In this document: in pieces, positions 16,698 to 36,137 of the stretch
How positions within the stretch are numbered: position 1 is the stretch's first letter
Layout of the letters: every line of letters starts with the position of its first letter
Assembly (NCBI GenBank): GCA_017656385.1
Contig: JACDNX010000011.1
Span: forward strand, 1-59,108
DNA: 59,108 bases
Direction: 5' to 3'
Source of the DNA: Thermodesulfobacterium sp.
GTDB taxonomy: Bacteria > Desulfobacterota > Thermodesulfobacteria > Thermodesulfobacteriales > Thermodesulfobacteriaceae
Position numbers and translations under genes: made by a program
Notes under the pieces: generated by a model
Databases searched by the model: none
What the model was told of the DNA's origin: nothing
The model's input: only the letters and a program-made list of their open reading frames with translations

Positions 16698-18089
16698 TTA
16701 ATTTTTTCTCCAATTTTCAATTTCTTTTTCAAGATAGACGCTTGACATAAATACAACAAGGGTTTTCTCTGATATATTTTTATTAAAGTTTAAATTTCTT
16801 TCTAAGAAATAAACTTCTTTTCCCATATTTTTAAGAGTTTGTGATACATAGTGCAAGTCAATTCTTTCTTTTTCGGGAATACTTTCCAGACCTGGAGGAA
16901 TTTTTAAATAAATCTCATCTGCAAGACTTAAGCTTTTTACATAATCTTCCTGAAAAATTTTTCTTTTACTAGAATTTGTTCTCGGTTCAAAAATAGTAAC
17001 TGTCCTTTGGGGTTTAACAGCCTTCTTAAGTTCTTCCAAAGTAATTTTCACAGCTGTAGGATGATGGGCAAAATCATCAATAATAACTAACTTTTCATTA
17101 GCATATAAAATTTCTTGTCTCCTTTTTACTCCAAGGAAGGTTTCAAAAACCTTTTCCCAATTTTCTTTCAATAAATCTAAACCATAAAGTAAAGCAAGAA
17201 CAGAAAGAGCATTGAGAGCATTGTATTCTCCAGGAAGAACTAAAGAAAATTTTAAAGTTTTTTTAAAAGGTGTTTCTGCTATTACAGAATTAAAAAAAGA
17301 CAAATTTTTAAAAGTAGTCTCACTTTTTAATAAAATAAAATCAGCACCAGGTGTTTTTCCATAAGAAACTGTCTTAGCTTTAAGTGAAGTGTTTTCTATA
17401 ATTTCTCTTAAATTTTCATCATCATGATTGTAAACTACAACTCCCTCTTTTGGAATAAGACTTATCAATTTTTTAAAAACCTTTTTTAGGCTTTCCATAT
17501 TTTGATAAACATCAGCATGATCATACTCAAGATTTGTTAGAATAAGTGAAAAAGGTTGATAATAGAGAAATTTGGCTTCTTTATCAAAAAAAGAAGCTGG
17601 ATACTCATCTCCTTCTACAACTGAAAAAACGCCATTGCCTTTTCTAAAATTAAGTTCCGAGTGTTTTAGCACCCCACCTACCAAATAAGTTGGATCTAAA
17701 TTAAGAGCTTCAAGAGTATAACTTAAAAGTGCGGTAACAGTTGTTTTCCCGTGGGTGCCTGCACAAACAAGAACCTTTTTATCTTTAAAAACAAACTTAT
17801 TCAAAAAGGAAGGAAAGGAATAAAGAGGTATCCCTAATTCTTTTGATGCAACCACTTCTTGATCGTCCTTTTTGGTTATATTTCCCACAATAACAGCATT
17901 TGGCTTTATTTTTCTAATATTTTCTGGATCTGGTTTATAAATAGGCACATTTAATTTTTTAAGAACTTCTGAGGAAGGAGGATAAAGATTCCCTTTTTCT
18001 GAACCGTAAACTTCAAAACCAGATTCTTTCAAAATTCCGGCAACACCAGACATCCCTATTCCGCCAATTCCAATCATGTAAACCTTCAT
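16698..18089 (-). CDS. mpl: UDP-N-acetylmuramate:tripeptide ligase (Mpl), murein recycling
   Basis: Mur-ligase paralogue that re-attaches recovered L-Ala-D-Glu-meso-DAP to UDP-MurNAc. 463 aa. The MurC-like N-terminus is IGIGGIGMSGVAGILKESG (6-24), the ATP loop is GTHGKTTVT (111-119), and the Mpl-type block VVEGDEYPASFFDKEAKF with LTNLEYDHAD differs from the true murC at 30744. Length fits Mpl. It ends a tight four-gene minus-strand operon (3 bp from the SAM hydrolase). With the DNPR-type murE it supports a meso-DAP wall that is recycled. Confidence 0.88.
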   Translation of the reverse strand: MKVYMIGIGGIGMSGVAGILKESGFEVYGSEKGNLYPPSSEVLKKLNVPIYKPDPENIRKIKPNAVIVGNITKKDDQEVVASKELGIPLYSFPSFLNKFVFKDKKVLVCAGTHGKTTVTALLSYTLEALNLDPTYLVGGVLKHSELNFRKGNGVFSVVEGDEYPASFFDKEAKFLYYQPFSLILTNLEYDHADVYQNMESLKKVFKKLISLIPKEGVVVYNHDDENLREIIENTSLKAKTVSYGKTPGADFILLKSETTFKNLSFFNSVIAETPFKKTLKFSLVLPGEYNALNALSVLALLYGLDLLKENWEKVFETFLGVKRRQEILYANEKLVIIDDFAHHPTAVKITLEELKKAVKPQRTVTIFEPRTNSSKRKIFQEDYVKSLSLADEIYLKIPPGLESIPEKERIDLHYVSQTLKNMGKEVYFLERNLNFNKNISEKTLVVFMSSVYLEKEIENWRKN

Positions 18090-22089: not shown

Positions 22090-22945
22090 ACCAGTATTGC
22101 TAAAAGAAGTGCTGGAGTGGTTGGATGTGAAAGAAAATAAAATTTATGTAGATGGAACTGTTGGACTCGGTGGACACAGCTCCGCTATTTTGGAAGCCTC
22201 CAAACCATCTGGAATTCTCTATGGTTTTGAATGGAACGAAGATTCTTTCAAAATAGCCAAAGAAAGACTAAAAAAGTACAAAGAAAGAGTAAAGTTATAT
22301 AATAAAAACTTTGTTTATATTAAAGAAATTCTTCAAAAAGAAAATGTATTAACAGACGGAGTTCTTTTAGATCTTGGAATCTCTTCCTTTCTTTTAGAAG
22401 GAAGTAAAAGAGGATTCTCCTTTCAAAAAAGTGAACCTCTTGATATGAGAATGAATTTATCTTTAAAAATTACTGCCAAGGATATACTCAATAATTACGA
22501 TTTCATAAAGTTAAGCAATGTATTTAAAAAGGGAGAAGTTCCCAGAGCAGAGAAATTTGCTAAATTTATCTGTGAGAAAAGAAAGAAAAAACCTTTTAAA
22601 TTAACTCAAGATTTAGTAGAAGCAGTAAAGGAATTCTATAAAACCTCTAAAAAAAATCTGCTGGCGATTGTTTTTCAAAGCCTCAGAATAGAAGTAAATA
22701 AAGAACTTGAGAATTTAGAAACTGTTTTAAAAGATATTCCTGATATTTTAAAACCTTCGGGTAGGATAGCGATTATCTCTTTTCATTCTTTGGAAGACAG
22801 ATTGGTCAAAAATTTTTTCAAAAATGATCCGAGAATCAAAGTTCTTACTAAAAAACCCATTACACCCTCTGAAGAAGAACTTAAAAGAAATCCAAGAGCA
22901 AGAAGTGCAAAAATGAGAGTGGGAGAAAAAGTAAATGAACAATAA
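22076..22945 (+). CDS. rsmH: 16S rRNA m4C1402 methyltransferase, apparent AUU start
   Basis: SAM-dependent N4-methylation of C1402 in 16S rRNA. Visible: GTVGLGGHS (SAM loop), LDLGISSFLL, DMRM, and the C-terminal FHSLEDRLVKNFF and NPRARSAKMRV. The first ATG/GTG/TTG-type codon is TTG at 22097, but the frame is open upstream and encodes YHHEPVLLKEVLEWLD, the conserved family N-terminus, before a stop at 22070. The only well-placed start is ATT at 22076, 6 nt after AGGAG. That choice gives 289 aa, close to family length, and overlaps mraZ by 14 bp. TTG at 22097 is the fallback. Confidence 0.9.
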   Translation: MYHHEPVLLKEVLEWLDVKENKIYVDGTVGLGGHSSAILEASKPSGILYGFEWNEDSFKIAKERLKKYKERVKLYNKNFVYIKEILQKENVLTDGVLLDLGISSFLLEGSKRGFSFQKSEPLDMRMNLSLKITAKDILNNYDFIKLSNVFKKGEVPRAEKFAKFICEKRKKKPFKLTQDLVEAVKEFYKTSKKNLLAIVFQSLRIEVNKELENLETVLKDIPDILKPSGRIAIISFHSLEDRLVKNFFKNDPRIKVLTKKPITPSEEELKRNPRARSAKMRVGEKVNEQ

Positions 22946-23282
22946 AACCCTGATTTATAAACCAAGTGTAGATTACTATCATACCAATAAAAAAACCAAT
23001 GCTAAAAGTGAAATTGTCTCCTTAAAGGAGCGGGTTAAGATTTTTTTAGAAAATCTATTAATTCTTCTTTTGGGCATCTCAATTTTTGTTTTAAGTGTTG
23101 GAATAGCTTATAACACCTATATTTTAGCGAAGTTAAAAGTGAAAAAACTTTCTTTGTTAAAAGAAAACAAAGCTTTAAGAAAAGAGTATCAATATTTAAC
23201 TTCAAGAGAAGTTGTTTTAAAAAAAGCTAAAAAATTAAACCTTTATCCACCTCAAAAAGGAGATTTAATTAAGCTGAAATAG
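22935..23282 (+). CDS. ftsL: FtsL-like cell division protein
   Basis: Small bitopic divisome protein: 115 aa with a ~38-residue cytoplasmic part, one membrane helix (about 39-66, LLILLLGISIFVLSVGIAY) and a short periplasmic coiled coil (LKVKKLSLLKENKALRKEY) ending in PPQKGDLIKL. Identification rests on topology, size and position between rsmH and ftsI. It overlaps rsmH by 11 bp. Confidence 0.75.
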   Translation: MNNKTLIYKPSVDYYHTNKKTNAKSEIVSLKERVKIFLENLLILLLGISIFVLSVGIAYNTYILAKLKVKKLSLLKENKALRKEYQYLTSREVVLKKAKKLNLYPPQKGDLIKLK

Positions 23283-23286
23283 GAAA

Positions 23287-24282
23287 ATGAAAAAACAGCA
23301 AAACTTCTTATTATTTTTGAGCCTTTTTTTACTTTTAGTAGTTTTAGTAATAAACTTTTCTGCAGAAAAGGTAACCGGAAAGTCTTCTGGACATAAAACA
23401 AAAAGAGGTTACATCTTTGATAGAAATTTACATCCCATTGCTATTTCCTTAGAAAACTATAAAGCCTATTACTATATAAAAAATAATTTTTTTCTCAGTT
23501 CTTCGGATTTGGAAATTCTCAAAAAGTATTTAGGTTCCACTATTAATCTATCTAAAAAAGGTATTATCCTTCTTTCAGAAGATTTGAGTTTAGAAGAAGT
23601 AGAAAGACTAAAAAAAGAAAAAAATGTAATTATAGAAAAAACCTTCAAAAGAAAGCTACTCCAACCTTACTTAAAAACACTGGTTGGAGAAACTTTTAAC
23701 GGATACGGAGTCTCTGGTTTGGAGAAGGTTTTTGATGAAAAACTGAGCATGGGGGAACCTCTTATCCTTTCTATTGATTTAAACTTAGAAAAAAAGATTT
23801 ATAATATAATCCATAACCTTAATCTCCCAGCTTTTGCAATAGCTATTTTTGATCTCTATACAGGAGAAGTATTAGGTTACATGGAAAGTGAAAATGCAAG
23901 GCTTTTTGATAATTATTATCCTTTGAGTTTTTTTGATCTTCCTCCCACAGAAATTAAAACTTTTAAATGGATTTTAGGAGAAAAACCAATTCTTAAAGAA
24001 AAGAATATAACCAAAATAAATACTTGGCACATTGCTAAATGGTATATGGATAAGGTGTGTAATGGTTCTCTTATCCCTACTGTGTTGCGCAGTCAAACTA
24101 AAGTGTGCGAACCAAATTTACAACTCTTTGAGAAAAATGAATACCACTATGCTCTCGGAAATATCTTTATTACAGTTGCTTTTAAAGATGACAAACTAAT
24201 CCTTACTTCATTTGCTTTAAATTCTCAGAATAATGAGCTATTAAACCAAAAAATACTAAACTATATATTAGCTCAATTATGA
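23287..24282 (+). CDS. FtsI/PBP3 homologue with a collapsed, catalytically dead transpeptidase domain
   Basis: Sits in the ftsI slot. An N-terminal membrane helix (6-24) is followed by the class B PBP pedestal: KRGYIFDRNLHPIA (39-52), GVSGLEKVFDEKL (141-153) and LSIDLNLEKK (161-170). IFDLYTGEVLGYM (187-199) is the usual entry to the transpeptidase fold. After that the enzyme falls apart: PPTEIK (219-224) replaces the PGSTFK nucleophile motif, only ~20 residues separate it from the TWHIAKWYMDKVCNGSLIP block (normally well over 100), and no SxN or KTG is present. At 331 aa it is ~200 short of FtsI. The frame is intact and overlaps murE by 4 bp, so it is expressed, perhaps as a structural divisome part. 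Confidence 0.8.
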   Translation: MKKQQNFLLFLSLFLLLVVLVINFSAEKVTGKSSGHKTKRGYIFDRNLHPIAISLENYKAYYYIKNNFFLSSSDLEILKKYLGSTINLSKKGIILLSEDLSLEEVERLKKEKNVIIEKTFKRKLLQPYLKTLVGETFNGYGVSGLEKVFDEKLSMGEPLILSIDLNLEKKIYNIIHNLNLPAFAIAIFDLYTGEVLGYMESENARLFDNYYPLSFFDLPPTEIKTFKWILGEKPILKEKNITKINTWHIAKWYMDKVCNGSLIPTVLRSQTKVCEPNLQLFEKNEYHYALGNIFITVAFKDDKLILTSFALNSQNNELLNQKILNYILAQL

Positions 24283-28268: not shown

Positions 28269-29672
28269 ATGAATTTAAAGAATAAAAAAGTTGTAGTTTT
28301 GGGATTTGGTAAAAGCGGAAAGGCAGCGGTAAGACTTCTTTTAAAACTTGGGGCAGAAGTGATTGTTTCTGAAGCTAAGGAGTTAGATGCTTTTTCTTCT
28401 GAAAATTTAGAACTTTTCAAATCTCAAGGAGTTTATTTTGAAACAGGAGGACATAGAAGGGAAACTCTTCTTTCTGCAGACCTTGTAATTACAAGTCCCG
28501 GAATTCCAAGAGAAGTATATACCGAATGCCTTAAAAAGGATATTCCTGTTATTGGTGAGATTGAACTTGCATGGCAATTCTTAAAAAATAAAGAAGAAAC
28601 CATTGCCATAACAGGCACAAATGGCAAAACAACTACCACTGCTATGGTTTCTGAACTCCTTAAGCTCTCAGGATACAAGGTTTTTACTGGTGGAAATTAT
28701 GGAATTCCTCTATCAGAATTGATAATTTCAGATGTTTCTGTAGATAAAATCGTTCTTGAAGTTTCAAGTTTTCAGCTGGAAAATATTCAGAGCTTTTCTC
28801 CCAGAGTTGGCATTCTTCTAAATATCAGTCCTGATCATTTGGAAAGATACTTTTCTTTTAAGGAGTATGCATACTATAAATACAGACTTTTTGAATACCA
28901 AAACAAAAACTGTTATGCTATTTTACCTTTTCAAGAAAAATGGTTTAATGATTTTAAAAACTTAATAAATGGACAGATTTTATTTTTTGATGAGAAGAAA
29001 AATGAAAGTGCAAAAGCTTATCTTAAGCCAAGTGAGATATCCTCTGAAGACGGTTTCATTATCAATTTAAAAGATAAAGAATTCTATTCCTTTTTTGGAT
29101 TTAAACTTCTTGGTATTCATAACAAAGTAAACTTTATGGTAGCAAGCTTAGGGGCAAGACTTTTGGGTTCAACTAAGGAAAGCATAGAGAAACTGATTAA
29201 TAAGTTTAGAGGATTTCCTCACAGATTAGAATACATAGGAGAGTTTGGAGGAGTTTATTTTATAAATGACTCAAAAGCAACCAATGTAGATGCAACTCTC
29301 CAAGCATTAAAAAGCCTTCCAGGTTCTGTAATTCTCATTCTTGGAGGAAAACACAAAGGTGCTTCTTACAGTCCCTTAATTCCTTATATAAAAGAAAAAG
29401 TAAAAATTTTAATTTTAATGGGTGAATCTCGTTTTATTATAGCTGAAGAACTGAACGGAGTTACAGAAACCTATATGAGTGAAACCTTAAGTGATGCAAC
29501 GCTTTTAGCTATAAAGTGTGCCAAACCAGGAGATATAGTCCTTCTTTCTCCAGCCTGTTCAAGTTTTGACCAGTTTAACGATTATAAGGAAAGAGGAGAA
29601 GTTTTCAGAAGATTAATTTTAACTCAAGCTCCTTTACATTTTAAGGAAAAGAAGGAGGAACTACTTCATTGA
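28269..29672 (+). CDS. murD: UDP-MurNAc-L-alanine--D-glutamate ligase
   Basis: Adds D-Glu to UDP-MurNAc-L-Ala. 467 aa, slightly longer than many. Rossmann-like N-terminus VVVLGFGKSGKAA, ATP loop ITGTNGKTTTT (near 112-122), LEVSSFQLE, ISPDHLERY, HRLEYIGEFGGVYFINDSKATN, and the C-terminal LLSPACSSFDQF. The next gene is murG, overlapping by 4 bp, leaving no room for the ftsW that usually lies here. Confidence 0.97.
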   Translation: MNLKNKKVVVLGFGKSGKAAVRLLLKLGAEVIVSEAKELDAFSSENLELFKSQGVYFETGGHRRETLLSADLVITSPGIPREVYTECLKKDIPVIGEIELAWQFLKNKEETIAITGTNGKTTTTAMVSELLKLSGYKVFTGGNYGIPLSELIISDVSVDKIVLEVSSFQLENIQSFSPRVGILLNISPDHLERYFSFKEYAYYKYRLFEYQNKNCYAILPFQEKWFNDFKNLINGQILFFDEKKNESAKAYLKPSEISSEDGFIINLKDKEFYSFFGFKLLGIHNKVNFMVASLGARLLGSTKESIEKLINKFRGFPHRLEYIGEFGGVYFINDSKATNVDATLQALKSLPGSVILILGGKHKGASYSPLIPYIKEKVKILILMGESRFIIAEELNGVTETYMSETLSDATLLAIKCAKPGDIVLLSPACSSFDQFNDYKERGEVFRRLILTQAPLHFKEKKEELLH

Positions 29673-30751
29673 AATGGCTTATTGTTGCTGGAGGAACAGG
29701 AGGGCATATTATACCAGGTGTGGCTGTGGCTCAACAACTATTAAAATTACAAAGAGAAGTATACTTTGTTTCAGGGACAAGAAAAGTAGAAGAAACAATT
29801 TTAAAAAATAAGCCTTTTAAAGTTTATACACTGGATGTAGAAGGTTTTGTAGGAAGATCTTTTAAAAATAAGATTAGAGCGTTTATGAAAATGATTAAAG
29901 CTATAGCTAAAGCTTATAAAATTGTTAATGACTTAAATCCTCATATAATACTTGCTACAGGAGGATATATTTCTTTTCCAGTGGTGCTTGTAGGGAAAAT
30001 AAAAGGTAAAAAATTAGGGCTTCACGAACAAAATATTGAACCAGGAATAGCAAACAAAGTTTTAAGCTATATGGTAGACAAAATTTTTGTAAGTATGGAA
30101 GAAAGCAAAAATTACTTTCCTAAGGAAAAGGTGGTCTTTTCAGGAAATCCTGTAAGAGAAGACATTTTAAATCTAAAACCAAGGGAGCACTCAGGAAAGG
30201 GTTTATTAATCTTAGGAGGAAGCTTGGGAGCAAGATTTATAAATGAGCTTGCTATAAAATTTGTGCCTCTGCTTTTAGACGAATTTAAGGATCTTTTAAT
30301 TATCCATCAAACAGGTTTGGATGATTTTGAAAGAGTAAATAATGAATACAAAAAATTGATTAAAAAAGAGCATGAAACTCGTTTAAAGGTTTTTCCCTTT
30401 ATAGAAGATATGAGCTGGGCTTATTCTCAGGTTGATTTATTTATGGGAAGATGCGGAGCTACAACTCTTGCTGAACTTTTTGCAGTTGGATTACCCGCTA
30501 TTTTTATTCCCTTTCCTTATGCTACCCGAAATCATCAGGAAAAAAATGCAAAAATTGTAGCTCAAAAAGGTGGTGCTATTTTAATAAGGCAGAAAGAAGC
30601 AACTCCTGAGGTTGTTTTAAAAGAAATTAAAGACCTGCTTAAAAATGAGGAAAAATTAAAAAGCATGTCTCAAATTATGAAAAGTTTTTACACCCCTGCT
30701 CCACAAAAAATAATTATAAATGAACTGGAGGAACTAATAAAAAATGGCTAA
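29669..30751 (+). CDS. murG: UDP-GlcNAc--lipid I GlcNAc transferase
   Basis: Converts lipid I to lipid II at the inner face of the membrane. 360 aa GT-B glycosyltransferase: GGTGGHIIPGVAVA (8-21), TGGYISFPVVL, HEQNIEPGIANK, GGSLGARFINE, and the UDP-GlcNAc site GRCGATTLAELFAVGLPAIFIP. The start is TTG, 10 nt after GGAGG and overlapping the murD stop. It overlaps murC by 8 bp. Confidence 0.97.
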   Translation: MKWLIVAGGTGGHIIPGVAVAQQLLKLQREVYFVSGTRKVEETILKNKPFKVYTLDVEGFVGRSFKNKIRAFMKMIKAIAKAYKIVNDLNPHIILATGGYISFPVVLVGKIKGKKLGLHEQNIEPGIANKVLSYMVDKIFVSMEESKNYFPKEKVVFSGNPVREDILNLKPREHSGKGLLILGGSLGARFINELAIKFVPLLLDEFKDLLIIHQTGLDDFERVNNEYKKLIKKEHETRLKVFPFIEDMSWAYSQVDLFMGRCGATTLAELFAVGLPAIFIPFPYATRNHQEKNAKIVAQKGGAILIRQKEATPEVVLKEIKDLLKNEEKLKSMSQIMKSFYTPAPQKIIINELEELIKNG

Positions 30752-32138: not shown

Positions 32139-33039
32139 GGATTTGGATAAAAAACTGAAAGAACTAAAAATAAATTTTAAAACTGATGAACCTTTGTCCT
32201 CTTACACAAGCATTAAAATAGGGGGACCTTGCAAAAGAATGATTTTCCCTGAAAGGGAAGAAAGTTTGTTAAAAATTATAGATTTTATGGAAGAAAAAGG
32301 GATACCTTTTTTTCTTTTAGGAGGAGGTAGTAAGCTTTTAATTTCAGATAGAGGATTTGAAGGAGTAGTTATTAATTTGTGTAGTCTTAAAAAAAGGGAA
32401 ATTATTGGAGAAAATGAGAAAAAAATTTTTTTAAAGATACTTGCAGGCACAAGGATTAATGAAATTATAGGTTTGGGGATTAAAAAAGGATTTGGAGGAA
32501 TTGAGTTTTTGGGAGGAATTCCTGCTACCTTAGGTGGGGCTATAAAAATGAATGCAGGAGCTTTTGGATATACGATATCTCAACTGGTTAAAAAGATAAA
32601 AATTTATAAAAACGGAGAAATAAAAATTATAGACTCTACAGATTCACTATGGGAATATAGAAAGTTTAAAGAAAGTGGAATTGTTCTTGGTGCAGAACTT
32701 GAGTTAAAAAAAATGAAAACAGAAGAAATAAAAAAAAGGCTTAAAGAGTATTTAGAAAAAAGAAGAAAAATGCAGCCTCTATTTGAAAAAACCTTTGGTT
32801 CTGTTTTCAAAAATCCAGCTTCTTCTTATGCAGGTGCACTTATAGAATCTTGCAATTTGAAAGGGTATCAGATAGGTAATGCTAAGATTTCGGAAAAACA
32901 TGCTAATTTTATAGTAAATCTTGGAGGAGCAAAAGCTACCGATGTTTTAAAGCTTATGAAACTTGCTCAGGAAAGAGTGTTTAAGAAATTCGGAATAATA
33001 CTTGAACCGGAGGTGAACTTTTTAGGATGCCAACTGTAA
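32128..33039 (+). CDS. murB: UDP-N-acetylenolpyruvoylglucosamine reductase
   Basis: FAD enzyme that reduces UDP-GlcNAc-enolpyruvate to UDP-MurNAc. 303 aa. SSYTSIKIGGPC at the N-terminus, FLLGGGSKLLISD (FAD pyrophosphate site), GGIEFLGGIPATLGGAIKMNAGAFG, the proton-donor region FGSVFKNP, and the C-terminal HANFIVNLGGA plus the Glu of ILEPEVNFLG. It overlaps ftsQ by 13 bp. Confidence 0.97.
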   Translation: MWFKDLDKKLKELKINFKTDEPLSSYTSIKIGGPCKRMIFPEREESLLKIIDFMEEKGIPFFLLGGGSKLLISDRGFEGVVINLCSLKKREIIGENEKKIFLKILAGTRINEIIGLGIKKGFGGIEFLGGIPATLGGAIKMNAGAFGYTISQLVKKIKIYKNGEIKIIDSTDSLWEYRKFKESGIVLGAELELKKMKTEEIKKRLKEYLEKRRKMQPLFEKTFGSVFKNPASSYAGALIESCNLKGYQIGNAKISEKHANFIVNLGGAKATDVLKLMKLAQERVFKKFGIILEPEVNFLGCQL

Positions 33040-33767
33040 CAGGAAAAATTAAATATCTAATTAAAAATAGACTTTTGTGGATTCTTACAGCTGTGCTATT
33101 TTCTCTTATTTTAATAATTTATTTACTTTATTTTACTGATCTTTTTATACTAAAGGAAGTTAGGGTGATTAATAATAAAAAGGTTGGGAAAAAAGAAATT
33201 ATAGCATTAACTGGTCTAAAAGGAGGAGAAAGACTTTTCTCAATACCTATTGATAAAATAAAAAAAAGAATTCTTCTTAATCCAAAAATTGAAAAAGTGG
33301 TTATAGCAAAACGTCTTCCCTATACACTTGAGATCAAAATAAAAGAAAGAGAACCTCTTGCAATTATTACCGTAGACAATAAAGGTTACCTCATAGATAA
33401 AAACGGAATTATTATAGATACTATTTTACCTGAAGATTATCAGTTTTATCCTGTAGTTGAAATTAAAAATAAAAAATTTAAAGATAAGTTTTTAAATTTT
33501 TTAGTTTGGTTAAAAAATCATAAAAATTATTTACCTGTTTACGAAAACTTAGCAAAGGCTATCTTGGAAGAAGATAAATTAATTTTTGTCACCAAGAATA
33601 ATATAAAAATTTATTTTCCACTTTTTTCAGAAAAAGACTGGACATACTTTTATAAAAATTTGGATAGAATAATGGCTTACTTATATGAGAAAGAGTTAAT
33701 TGAAAAAGTGGAGCTTATAAGGTTAGATTATCCCTTAGGTTCTGCATTAATAAAATTCAGGAGTTGA
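33027..33767 (+). CDS. ftsQ: cell division protein FtsQ
   Basis: Bitopic divisome scaffold. 246 aa: a ~14-residue cytoplasmic tail, a membrane helix (about 15-38, LLWILTAVLFSLILIIYLLY), a POTRA domain (LFILKEVRVINNKKVGKKEI ... NPKIEKVVIAKRLPYTLEIKI) and the FtsQ-type beta domain (REPLAIITVDNKGYLIDKNG). The position before ftsA supports the call. Confidence 0.9.
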   Translation: MPTVTGKIKYLIKNRLLWILTAVLFSLILIIYLLYFTDLFILKEVRVINNKKVGKKEIIALTGLKGGERLFSIPIDKIKKRILLNPKIEKVVIAKRLPYTLEIKIKEREPLAIITVDNKGYLIDKNGIIIDTILPEDYQFYPVVEIKNKKFKDKFLNFLVWLKNHKNYLPVYENLAKAILEEDKLIFVTKNNIKIYFPLFSEKDWTYFYKNLDRIMAYLYEKELIEKVELIRLDYPLGSALIKFRS

Positions 33768-33770
33768 TAA

Positions 33771-35015
33771 ATGGGAAGAGAAAGAGGTATTCTGGTTGTT
33801 GATGTAGGCACTACCAAAGTATGTGCTCTTATAGGAGAAGAGAAAGAGGAAAAGTTATGGGTTACAGGAATGGGTATAGCTCCTTCAAGAGGACTTAAAA
33901 AGGGGACCATAATAAATATAGATGAGGCTACACAAAGTATAAAAGAGGCTATAGAGAAGGCTCAATCTCAGGCTAAGGTTTCTATAGAAAGTATTTATAC
34001 CAGCATTGCAGGAAGTCATATTAAAACACTTTCCAGCTCAGGTGTAGTTGCTTTAAAAGAAAAAATAGTTACTCCGGCTGAGGTAGAAGAAGTTCTCTAT
34101 TCTGCTCAAGCTGTAGAGCTTCCACAAGATAGAACCATCTTGCATGTAATCCCTCAGGAATTTATAGTTGATCAAGCAAGGGGAATAATTCAACCTGTTG
34201 GAATGTCTGGAGTAAGACTGGAAGCACATGTCCGGTTGATTACTTGCAATCGCTCTAATCTTCAAAATTTACTAAGATGCTTTGAGAATCTGGATTTAGA
34301 AGTAGATGGTGTCATTTTTCAAGGATTAGCTTCTGGAGAAGGAGTATTAACTTCTGAGGAGAAAGAATTAGGAGTTATATTAATTGATCTTGGTGGTGGA
34401 ACTACTGATGTAGCAATCTACTGGGATAATGTCTTAAGATATGTATTTTCTCTACCTGTTGGAGGAGAGCTTCTTACCAATGATCTTGCTGTAGGTTTAA
34501 GAACCTCAAGAAAAGAAGCAGAGAAATTAAAAATTGAAAATGGAGTTTGTGTAAGAGAACTTGTAGATGATGAAGAAATTATTGAGGTTCCAGGAATAGG
34601 AGATCGTCCCCCTAAAAAAGTAAATAAAAAAATTCTGGCAGAAATTTTGGAACCACGGATAAGAGAGCTTTTTGAACTGATTGAAAAAGAATTACAGGCA
34701 CAGACCCTTTATGAGGAAGATATTATTGATATTAAATCCAAAGCAGGAAGTGGAATAGTAATAACTGGAGGCTCTGCTCTTCTTCCCGGTATTATATATT
34801 TAGCTGAACAAATATTTAACTTGCCAGCAAGGATTGGATATCCTTTGAAACTTGCCGGACTCGCTGAAGAAACTTATCATCCTCAATTTGCTACTTCTGT
34901 GGGAATGCTTTCCTATGTTTATAGTGGTTTAAAAGAAAAAATAAAAGAAGATAAAAAGGAAAGATTAATTGAAAAATTAAAAAAAAGTTTTTTAAAATTT
35001 ATAAAAGGGGGCTAA
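33771..35015 (+). CDS. ftsA: cell division protein FtsA
   Basis: Actin-like ATPase that ties FtsZ filaments to the membrane. 414 aa. ILVVDVGTTKVCALIGE (7-23) is the phosphate-1 loop; the SHI(K)TLSSSG 1C subdomain region, VILIDLGGGTTDVAIY (phosphate 2) and VITGGSALLPGI (adenosine motif) follow. The Lys-rich C-terminus (LIEKLKKSFLKFIKGG) is an amphipathic membrane-targeting helix. It lies 3 bp after ftsQ and 3 bp before ftsZ. Confidence 0.97.
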   Translation: MGRERGILVVDVGTTKVCALIGEEKEEKLWVTGMGIAPSRGLKKGTIINIDEATQSIKEAIEKAQSQAKVSIESIYTSIAGSHIKTLSSSGVVALKEKIVTPAEVEEVLYSAQAVELPQDRTILHVIPQEFIVDQARGIIQPVGMSGVRLEAHVRLITCNRSNLQNLLRCFENLDLEVDGVIFQGLASGEGVLTSEEKELGVILIDLGGGTTDVAIYWDNVLRYVFSLPVGGELLTNDLAVGLRTSRKEAEKLKIENGVCVRELVDDEEIIEVPGIGDRPPKKVNKKILAEILEPRIRELFELIEKELQAQTLYEEDIIDIKSKAGSGIVITGGSALLPGIIYLAEQIFNLPARIGYPLKLAGLAEETYHPQFATSVGMLSYVYSGLKEKIKEDKKERLIEKLKKSFLKFIKGG

Positions 35016-35018
35016 ATA

Positions 35019-36137
35019 ATGGGTGGTCCTTTTGAGTTGTTAGATGATGAAATAAAAGTTCAACCCAATATAAAAGTAGTTGGTGTCGGAGGAGCAGGAG
35101 GTAATGCAGTAGCAAATATGATAAAGAATAAATTACAAGGAGTGGAATTTATTGCAGCAAATACAGACTATAGAGTTCTGGATCTCAATCCTGCTCCTCT
35201 AAAAATACAATTGGGTAAAAAGTTAACCAAAGGGTTAGGAGCAGGTGGAAAGCCTGAAATTGGTAGACAGGCAGCTGAAGAAAGTGAAAGAGAAATAAGG
35301 GATGTGTTGAAAGATGCAGATATGGTTTTTATTGCTGCAGGAATGGGAGGAGGAACAGGAACAGGAGCTGCTCCTGTAATAGCAAACATTTGTAAAGATC
35401 TGGGAGCCTTAACTATTGCAGTTGTTACCAAACCTTTTTCTTTTGAAGGAAAATTTAGAATGAAAGTTGCTGAACAGGGCTTAGAAGAATTAAGAAAACA
35501 TGTGGATACGCTTATTACTATTCCTAATGACAAACTTCTCACTCTTGGTTCTCCTCAAGATAGGCTTGCAGATATGTTTAAAAAAGCAGACGATGTATTA
35601 TATTATGCAGTAAGAGGGATTTCTGATTTGATTCTTTCTCCTGGATATATAAACCTTGATTTTGCAGATGTTAAGGCATTGATGAGTGAAAGTGGAGGTA
35701 CGGCTTTGATGGGTATGGGAGAAGCAAAAGGAGAAGACAGAGCAGAAGTGGCAACACAAATGGCTATCTGTAGCCCTCTTTTGGAGGATATTTCTATTTC
35801 CGGAGCTAAAGGGATTTTATTAAATATAAGTGTTCACCCTGATACCTTAACCATTCACGAAACCCAGATAATTACAAGTACCATTTCCAAGGAACTACAT
35901 CCTGATGCTAAGGTTTATTGGGGAGTTGTCTTTGATGAAAGGCTGGAAGATTGCCTTAGAGTTACTGTAATAGCTACAGGTCTTGAAAAACCTCAGGAAA
36001 AAGAAAGAAAAGAAAAGATAATAAAAATGGATGAAGGAATAAAGAGGAAAGGAGAAAAACAGAAAAAAAGCGTTTTTAATCTTTTTGACGAAGAGATTTT
36101 AGATATACCCACCTTCCTCAGGAGAAATGCAGATTAA
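35019..36137 (+). CDS. ftsZ: cell division protein FtsZ
   Basis: Tubulin-like GTPase that forms the division ring. 372 aa. [12 protein letters not shown] near the start, the tubulin signature [13 protein letters not shown] (about 109-121), synergy (T7) loop [11 protein letters not shown], and a short linker ending in the conserved tail DIPTFLRR that binds FtsA. Normal length. No promoter is evident within the preceding 20 genes' tight spacing, so much transcription may come from mraZ. Confidence 0.98.

Follow-up and report, generated by a model that had tools for sequence, protein, structure and literature searches.

A catalytically dead FtsI kept in the dcw cluster of Thermodesulfobacterium, a lineage without FtsW

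The window, i.e. the whole stretch of 59,108 nucleotides considered here, belongs to a Thermodesulfobacterium genome of 1.67 Mb with a computed completeness estimate of 100%, and carries a dcw cluster in the order mraZ-mraW-ftsL-ftsI*-murE-murF-mraY-murD-murG-murC-murB-ftsQ-ftsA-ftsZ. The gene designated ftsI* (23287..24282, + strand) encodes a non-catalytic FtsI of 331 residues; it starts 4 nt past the stop codon of ftsL and overlaps the start of murE by an ATGA, so that the intact frame and tight coupling to both neighbours described in the original prediction are borne out by the ORF coordinates. The preceding ftsL (22935..23282, +), whose product is the expected partner of the FtsI* pedestal, is assigned by its position and by FtsL profile matches below the curated cut-offs. 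Further downstream, murD and murG overlap (29660..29680, +), which means that ftsW is absent from its usual place, and the order's other dcw clusters share this arrangement. The remaining divisome core, namely ftsQ, ftsA and ftsZ (33027..36137, +), is kept in the cluster. Upstream, and separate from the murC of the dcw cluster, a second Mur-ligase-like protein of 463 residues, with likeness to the Mpl/MurC type, is encoded at 16698-18089 on the minus strand.

When considered by domain profiles, the FtsI* protein shows no match to Pfam Transpeptidase and a sub-threshold match to PBP_dimer at residues 38-95. In a profile search of the PDB, the FtsI* family matches structures of SpoVD and FtsI at residues 36-164 and 130-202, with no structure-profile match beyond approximately residue 223 among the matches listed. 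Comparison of profiles with hhalign gave 99.3% for the short FtsI* against full FtsI, 99.7% against the somewhat longer form from genera g3-g5, and 99.4-100% for the longer dead forms against full FtsI. FtsI* thus combines the slot between ftsL and murE with homology to full-length FtsI and, judged by position and this chain of profile comparisons, is a true FtsI orthologue.

The N-terminus contains a transmembrane helix predicted from hydropathy at residues 7-25 (23305..23361, +), without the juxtamembrane motif [RK]xxxLQ[VI] of catalytic class B PBPs. Among catalytic FtsI, 41 of 53 contain this motif, as do 23 of 24 PBP2 proteins, but it is missing from all 55 dead FtsI, the pattern being a yardstick of our own that was loosened after the data had been seen (the first, stricter version matched 30 of the 53 catalytic FtsI). 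Next comes a pedestal (approximately residues 33-165; 23383..23781, +), the most conserved part of the protein: it coincides with the first match to the SpoVD and FtsI structures, the invariant residues are concentrated in it (K39, R40, G41, D45, R46, G134, G141, G144, E146 and F149), and the first 165 residues are under lower dN/dS than the remainder in seven of eight pairs. The pedestal motifs had been described as well kept, which holds for RGxIxDR and GxxGxExxF, although the pedestal as a whole is shortened.

Residues 166-331 (23782..24279, +) form a remnant of the transpeptidase domain which, according to a joint alignment with full FtsI and a weak model with the core sheet, consists of the first helix and hairpin, a deletion scar, the helix that follows SxN and the final strands, with neither a nucleophile nor SxN nor KTG. 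The deletion spans the region from the nucleophile box to beyond SxN throughout the order. In FtsI*, the segments of the SxxK box and of SxN are deleted and that of the KTG strand is missing; SxxK is likewise absent from all 18 short forms and from every longer form read, and the box, EPGSTFK in full FtsI, is already replaced in the deepest branch (ETFPLKP in family f2). KTG tripeptides occurring in some congeners belong to a TGE hairpin and not to the motif site. The alignment therefore confirms that the catalytic motifs are missing at their places, as originally claimed, while two details of that claim have to be corrected. PPTEIK (residues 219-224), taken for a mutated PGSTFK, is part of a variable loop over the scar (SSTEIK, PPSEIK, HPSELK or PENEIK in congeners), located just before the next kept element, a helix that in full FtsI follows SxN as "TPLQLxxA" and in the window reads INTWHIAKWYM. 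Similarly, TKVCE is no vestige of KTG, as it contains one of two nearly invariant cysteines. These residues, C258 and C274 (24058-24108), lie about 16 residues apart in the periplasmic domain, are nearly invariant in short FtsI* and also occur in genera g3-g5 (L126-L129); they perhaps form a disulfide over the deletion scar. A structure model built with AlphaFold2 from only two usable sequences is poor (pLDDT 48.7), and its matches to PBP3 and PBP1 cores (Z 7.2-7.7) count as weak, because roadblock and profilin folds appear among them with equal or higher Z.

The short dead form (291-340 residues) is conserved in 13 of 13 congeners, one copy ending at a contig edge, and in the two sister genera g2 and g6. 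Since it is intact in these many independent genomes, an assembly or frameshift artefact is ruled out. Longer proteins occupy the ftsI slot elsewhere in the order, all of them without the three motifs: 370-392 residues with a PASTA-like end in genera g3-g5 of the same family, and 449-474 residues in family f3 and 522 residues in family f2, both with a PASTA-like C-terminus. Most of the longer dead FtsI proteins of the order and of the class Dissulfuribacteria possess such a C-terminal PASTA domain. Several dead FtsI proteins still pass the Pfam Transpeptidase cut-off, and domain-level annotation thus hides the death of FtsI.

The ftsI* gene is under purifying selection, its dN/dS being 0.09-0.25 in eight pairs (pairwise Nei-Gojobori) as compared with 0.04-0.34 for the other dcw genes examined in this way. 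The values lie somewhat above those of most enzymes of the cluster, so that some relaxation of selection is possible. The stepwise shortening across the clade and the higher dN/dS of the second half would also be expected of a dying gene with little or no function, whose frame is kept intact by its operon position and by translational coupling to murE. This is improbable, given that the frame is intact in every complete copy read, that dN/dS is low and pedestal residues are invariant, and that the dead state is long-lasting and common to an order and a class. Instead of being a scaffold for synthases, FtsI* might have acquired a new activity or bind the wall itself, for instance to sense peptidoglycan or lipid II. 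Such a function would be in keeping with the two cysteines, with the PASTA domain retained in most dead-FtsI lineages and, by analogy, with the ability of S. aureus PBP1 PASTA domains to bind peptidoglycan (PMC9426605). We consider it very improbable, as the invariant residues fall mostly in known pedestal motifs and the Thermodesulfobacterium protein itself has no PASTA domain.

As regards the other wall enzymes, the genome encodes a single SEDS protein, in an operon mreC-mreD-mrdA-rodA. It is RodA, since it groups with RodA proteins, adjoins PBP2 and mreCD, and has rodA_shape as its best NCBIfam match, which lies below the curated cut-off. A relocated ftsW elsewhere in the genome is thereby ruled out. 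The one complete class B PBP is PBP2, with PGSTYK, SCD and KTGT, and the genome further encodes one class A PBP of the PBP1a type, one S11 carboxypeptidase and MreB. A second catalytic FtsI is likewise ruled out, because the third match to Transpeptidase (PF00905) is the D-Ala-D-Ala carboxypeptidase of family S11. FtsI* itself does not qualify as half of a SEDS-bPBP pair, there being neither an FtsW in the genome nor the juxtamembrane motif in the protein.

The same holds for SEDS genes across the order, with one such gene in each of 41 genomes (split over two contigs in one case). None of these genomes passes the FtsW profile cut-off, which is a strict one that only 3 of 10 control genomes pass, and for this reason the argument for the absence of FtsW is carried by the SEDS tree. 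There, the proteins of the order, nearly all of them encoded beside PBP2, fall on the RodA side with a support of 100 and are separated from the FtsW proteins that other bacteria encode in their dcw clusters. A long stem (0.65 changes per site) leads to RodA of families f1 and f3 but not to that of f2 and Dissulfuribacteria; it may reflect a changed function.

Beyond the order, the outgroup locus L161 (bacterium UBA3076, class Dissulfuribacteria) shows the same state with a dead FtsI. Exactly one SEDS match was found in 45 of 46 Dissulfuribacteria genomes and none in the other. FtsW is absent from all 41 and 46 genomes of the order and this class, and no Dissulfuribacteria dcw cluster that reaches murG contains ftsW. 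All the FtsI proteins read in the class, from 21 dcw loci and further members, are without catalytic motifs. Many Dissulfuribacteria loci (L268, L269, L271, L275-L278, L280, L281, L283, L285-L287 and L161) also have a murE ORF of about 980-1050 residues and no separate murF match, which looks like a MurE-MurF fusion.

In a sample of 89 genomes drawn evenly from the phylum, two SEDS proteins are found in most of the others. The lone SEDS found in G107, G108, G111 and G154 is the dcw-encoded FtsW, and their FtsI is catalytic. SxxK, SxN and KTG are present in FtsI in 17 of 17 dcw clusters of the phylum with FtsW, and dead FtsI in every RodA-only cluster examined. All the full-length catalytic relatives found belong to genomes or clusters other than those of the lineages lacking FtsW, and in 51 named clusters, among the matches listed, a catalytic FtsI and a SEDS gene share the locus. 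Two genomes, G036 and G137, have a catalytic FtsI and a lone SEDS gene not seen in the dcw cluster; since their dcw contigs end before the place of ftsW and their relatives have two SEDS genes, they do not count against this rule. Further RodA-only groups with dead FtsI are f20 (643 residues), f17 (617-621), f27 (248-254) and f56 (318). For the last two, identity as FtsI is tentative, because the evidence consists of their position, a PASTA-like end and a weak match between profiles (50%), and Pfam gives no match. Their slot proteins (L291:16573-17319, L292:16592-17356 and L295:16377-17333; 248-318 residues) show an apparent transmembrane helix, a possible scrap of transpeptidase and the PASTA-like end; the pedestal has apparently been lost, by a route of erosion different from that of Thermodesulfobacterium. 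In one f17 genome (G103), the only SEDS gene, beside PBP2, is split into ORFs of 156 and 206 residues (L303:7656-8788), which represents either an error or a broken rodA.

The number of origins was assessed on trees of concatenated dcw proteins from which FtsI and FtsW had been left out. Thermodesulfobacteria and Dissulfuribacteria group together with an SH-aLRT of 99.9 in a 47-row tree, and together with f17 at 84/81 in a more careful 52-row tree, whereas f20 and f27/f56 are placed elsewhere. A single origin of all FtsW-less lineages was favoured on a quick 64-row tree, a preference for one clade that arose because the free tree was suboptimal, and it runs against the careful tree. The latter needs three changes, a single change being found in 0 of 200 bootstrap trees and rejected by the AU test at p = 0.033, a value that is not decisive. 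About three origins of the FtsW-less, dead-FtsI state are thus likely on these sequence data.

Taken together, the lineage of the window has no FtsW, and its FtsI has no nucleophile, SxN, KTG or SEDS-facing juxtamembrane motif, while the gene is intact, in place and under purifying selection. With the catalytic parts of FtsI and FtsW both lost, the division wall must come from other enzymes. The features needed for catalysis and for SEDS partnership are gone, the pedestal is kept, and structural roles of related proteins have precedents (PBP2B, PBP1), all of which argues for FtsI* as a scaffold. On balance, we therefore favour FtsI* as a pseudoenzyme that probably serves the divisome as a non-enzymatic subunit, held by FtsL and FtsQ at its pedestal, with the septum being made by RodA-PBP2 and the class A PBP possibly helping. 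According to this model, the pedestal would bind the FtsL/FtsQ subcomplex as it does in full FtsI, and FtsI* would help in putting together or licensing the septal machine. The sole SEDS protein RodA and the sole catalytic class B PBP, PBP2, would serve both elongation and septation, assisted by the single class A PBP. The two alternatives of the original prediction, a structural divisome subunit and a septum made by another PBP, would then probably both be true. Against the scaffold reading counts the fact that no single domain is common to all dead forms, as Thermodesulfobacterium is without PASTA and f27/f56 are seemingly without a pedestal. The possible relaxation of selection on ftsI* and the poor quality of the structure model weigh on the same side.

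Least certain in this model is that RodA-PBP2 makes the septum. Alternatively, the single PBP1a could be the main septal synthase with FtsI* as its scaffold or regulator, leaving RodA-PBP2 for elongation only; the genome does encode such a protein, and Clostridioides difficile, which divides without canonical FtsW/FtsI, provides a precedent by analogy (PMC10693644). We regard this as rather unlikely, since ftsA, ftsQ, ftsL and ftsI* are all retained in the cluster and under selection, in contrast to C. difficile. Two points favour RodA-PBP2: there is no other SEDS-bPBP pair, and this FtsA, FtsQ, FtsL and FtsI* core has been kept. A broader proposal, to which we give a little less than even credence, is that losing FtsW makes FtsI a dedicated, non-enzymatic adaptor that places RodA-PBP2 under divisome control, so that one machine would serve elongation and septation, and that this happened more than once in the phylum, yielding natural separation-of-function mutants of FtsI.

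For synthesis of the septal wall, FtsW-FtsI has been called universally essential (PMC10693644). In the present case, FtsW is missing and a dead FtsI is still under selection in an order and a class of bacteria, and probably in further lineages as well. Natural evolution has here separated the scaffold role of FtsI from its role as an enzyme, and points to the residues relevant for the former. The prediction is that septa are built by the elongation pair or by a class A PBP, within a divisome still equipped with FtsA, FtsQ and FtsL. A full-text search of published, mostly open-access papers yielded no account of an FtsI that has naturally lost catalysis, or of a link between such a loss and that of FtsW.

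Among the closest known systems is FtsI (PBP3), the septal class B PBP, for example in the FtsWIQBL complex of Pseudomonas aeruginosa. There, the transmembrane helix of FtsI binds TM8/TM9 of FtsW, its linker contacts loop 4 of FtsW, and FtsL is bound by the pedestal (PMC7614612). FtsI* shares with this FtsI (PBP3) the place in the dcw cluster, the single transmembrane helix, the pedestal motifs and profile homology, and differs from it in that the nucleophile, SxN and KTG are absent, the transpeptidase domain has lost its helical part, and the genome has no FtsW. In Bacillus subtilis, PBP2B has a structural role separate from catalysis, and its S309A variant functions in division while another PBP supplies transpeptidation (PMC5656894); that variant is a laboratory point mutant with FtsW present, whereas the state of FtsI* is natural, old and coupled to the loss of FtsW. 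Functions of Staphylococcus aureus PBP1, also a division class B PBP, are likewise separable from catalysis and its PASTA domains matter, but its catalysis is needed too in methicillin-sensitive strains, and the Thermodesulfobacterium form has no PASTA (PMC9426605). C. difficile resembles the present case in that vegetative division proceeds without the canonical FtsW-FtsI pair; there, however, a class A PBP makes the vegetative septum, FtsA is missing, and the pair encoded in the dcw cluster is catalytic and serves sporulation (PMC10693644), whereas the present lineage has a dead FtsI and no ftsW and keeps the remaining divisome core. Finally, Leonard et al. 2022 (PMC8871954) have already published that the dcw cluster of Thermodesulfobacteria has lost ftsW, which concerns the same lineage and the same missing gene; the present analysis further describes the death of FtsI, the genome-wide absence of FtsW and the recurrence of this state in Dissulfuribacteria and other lineages.
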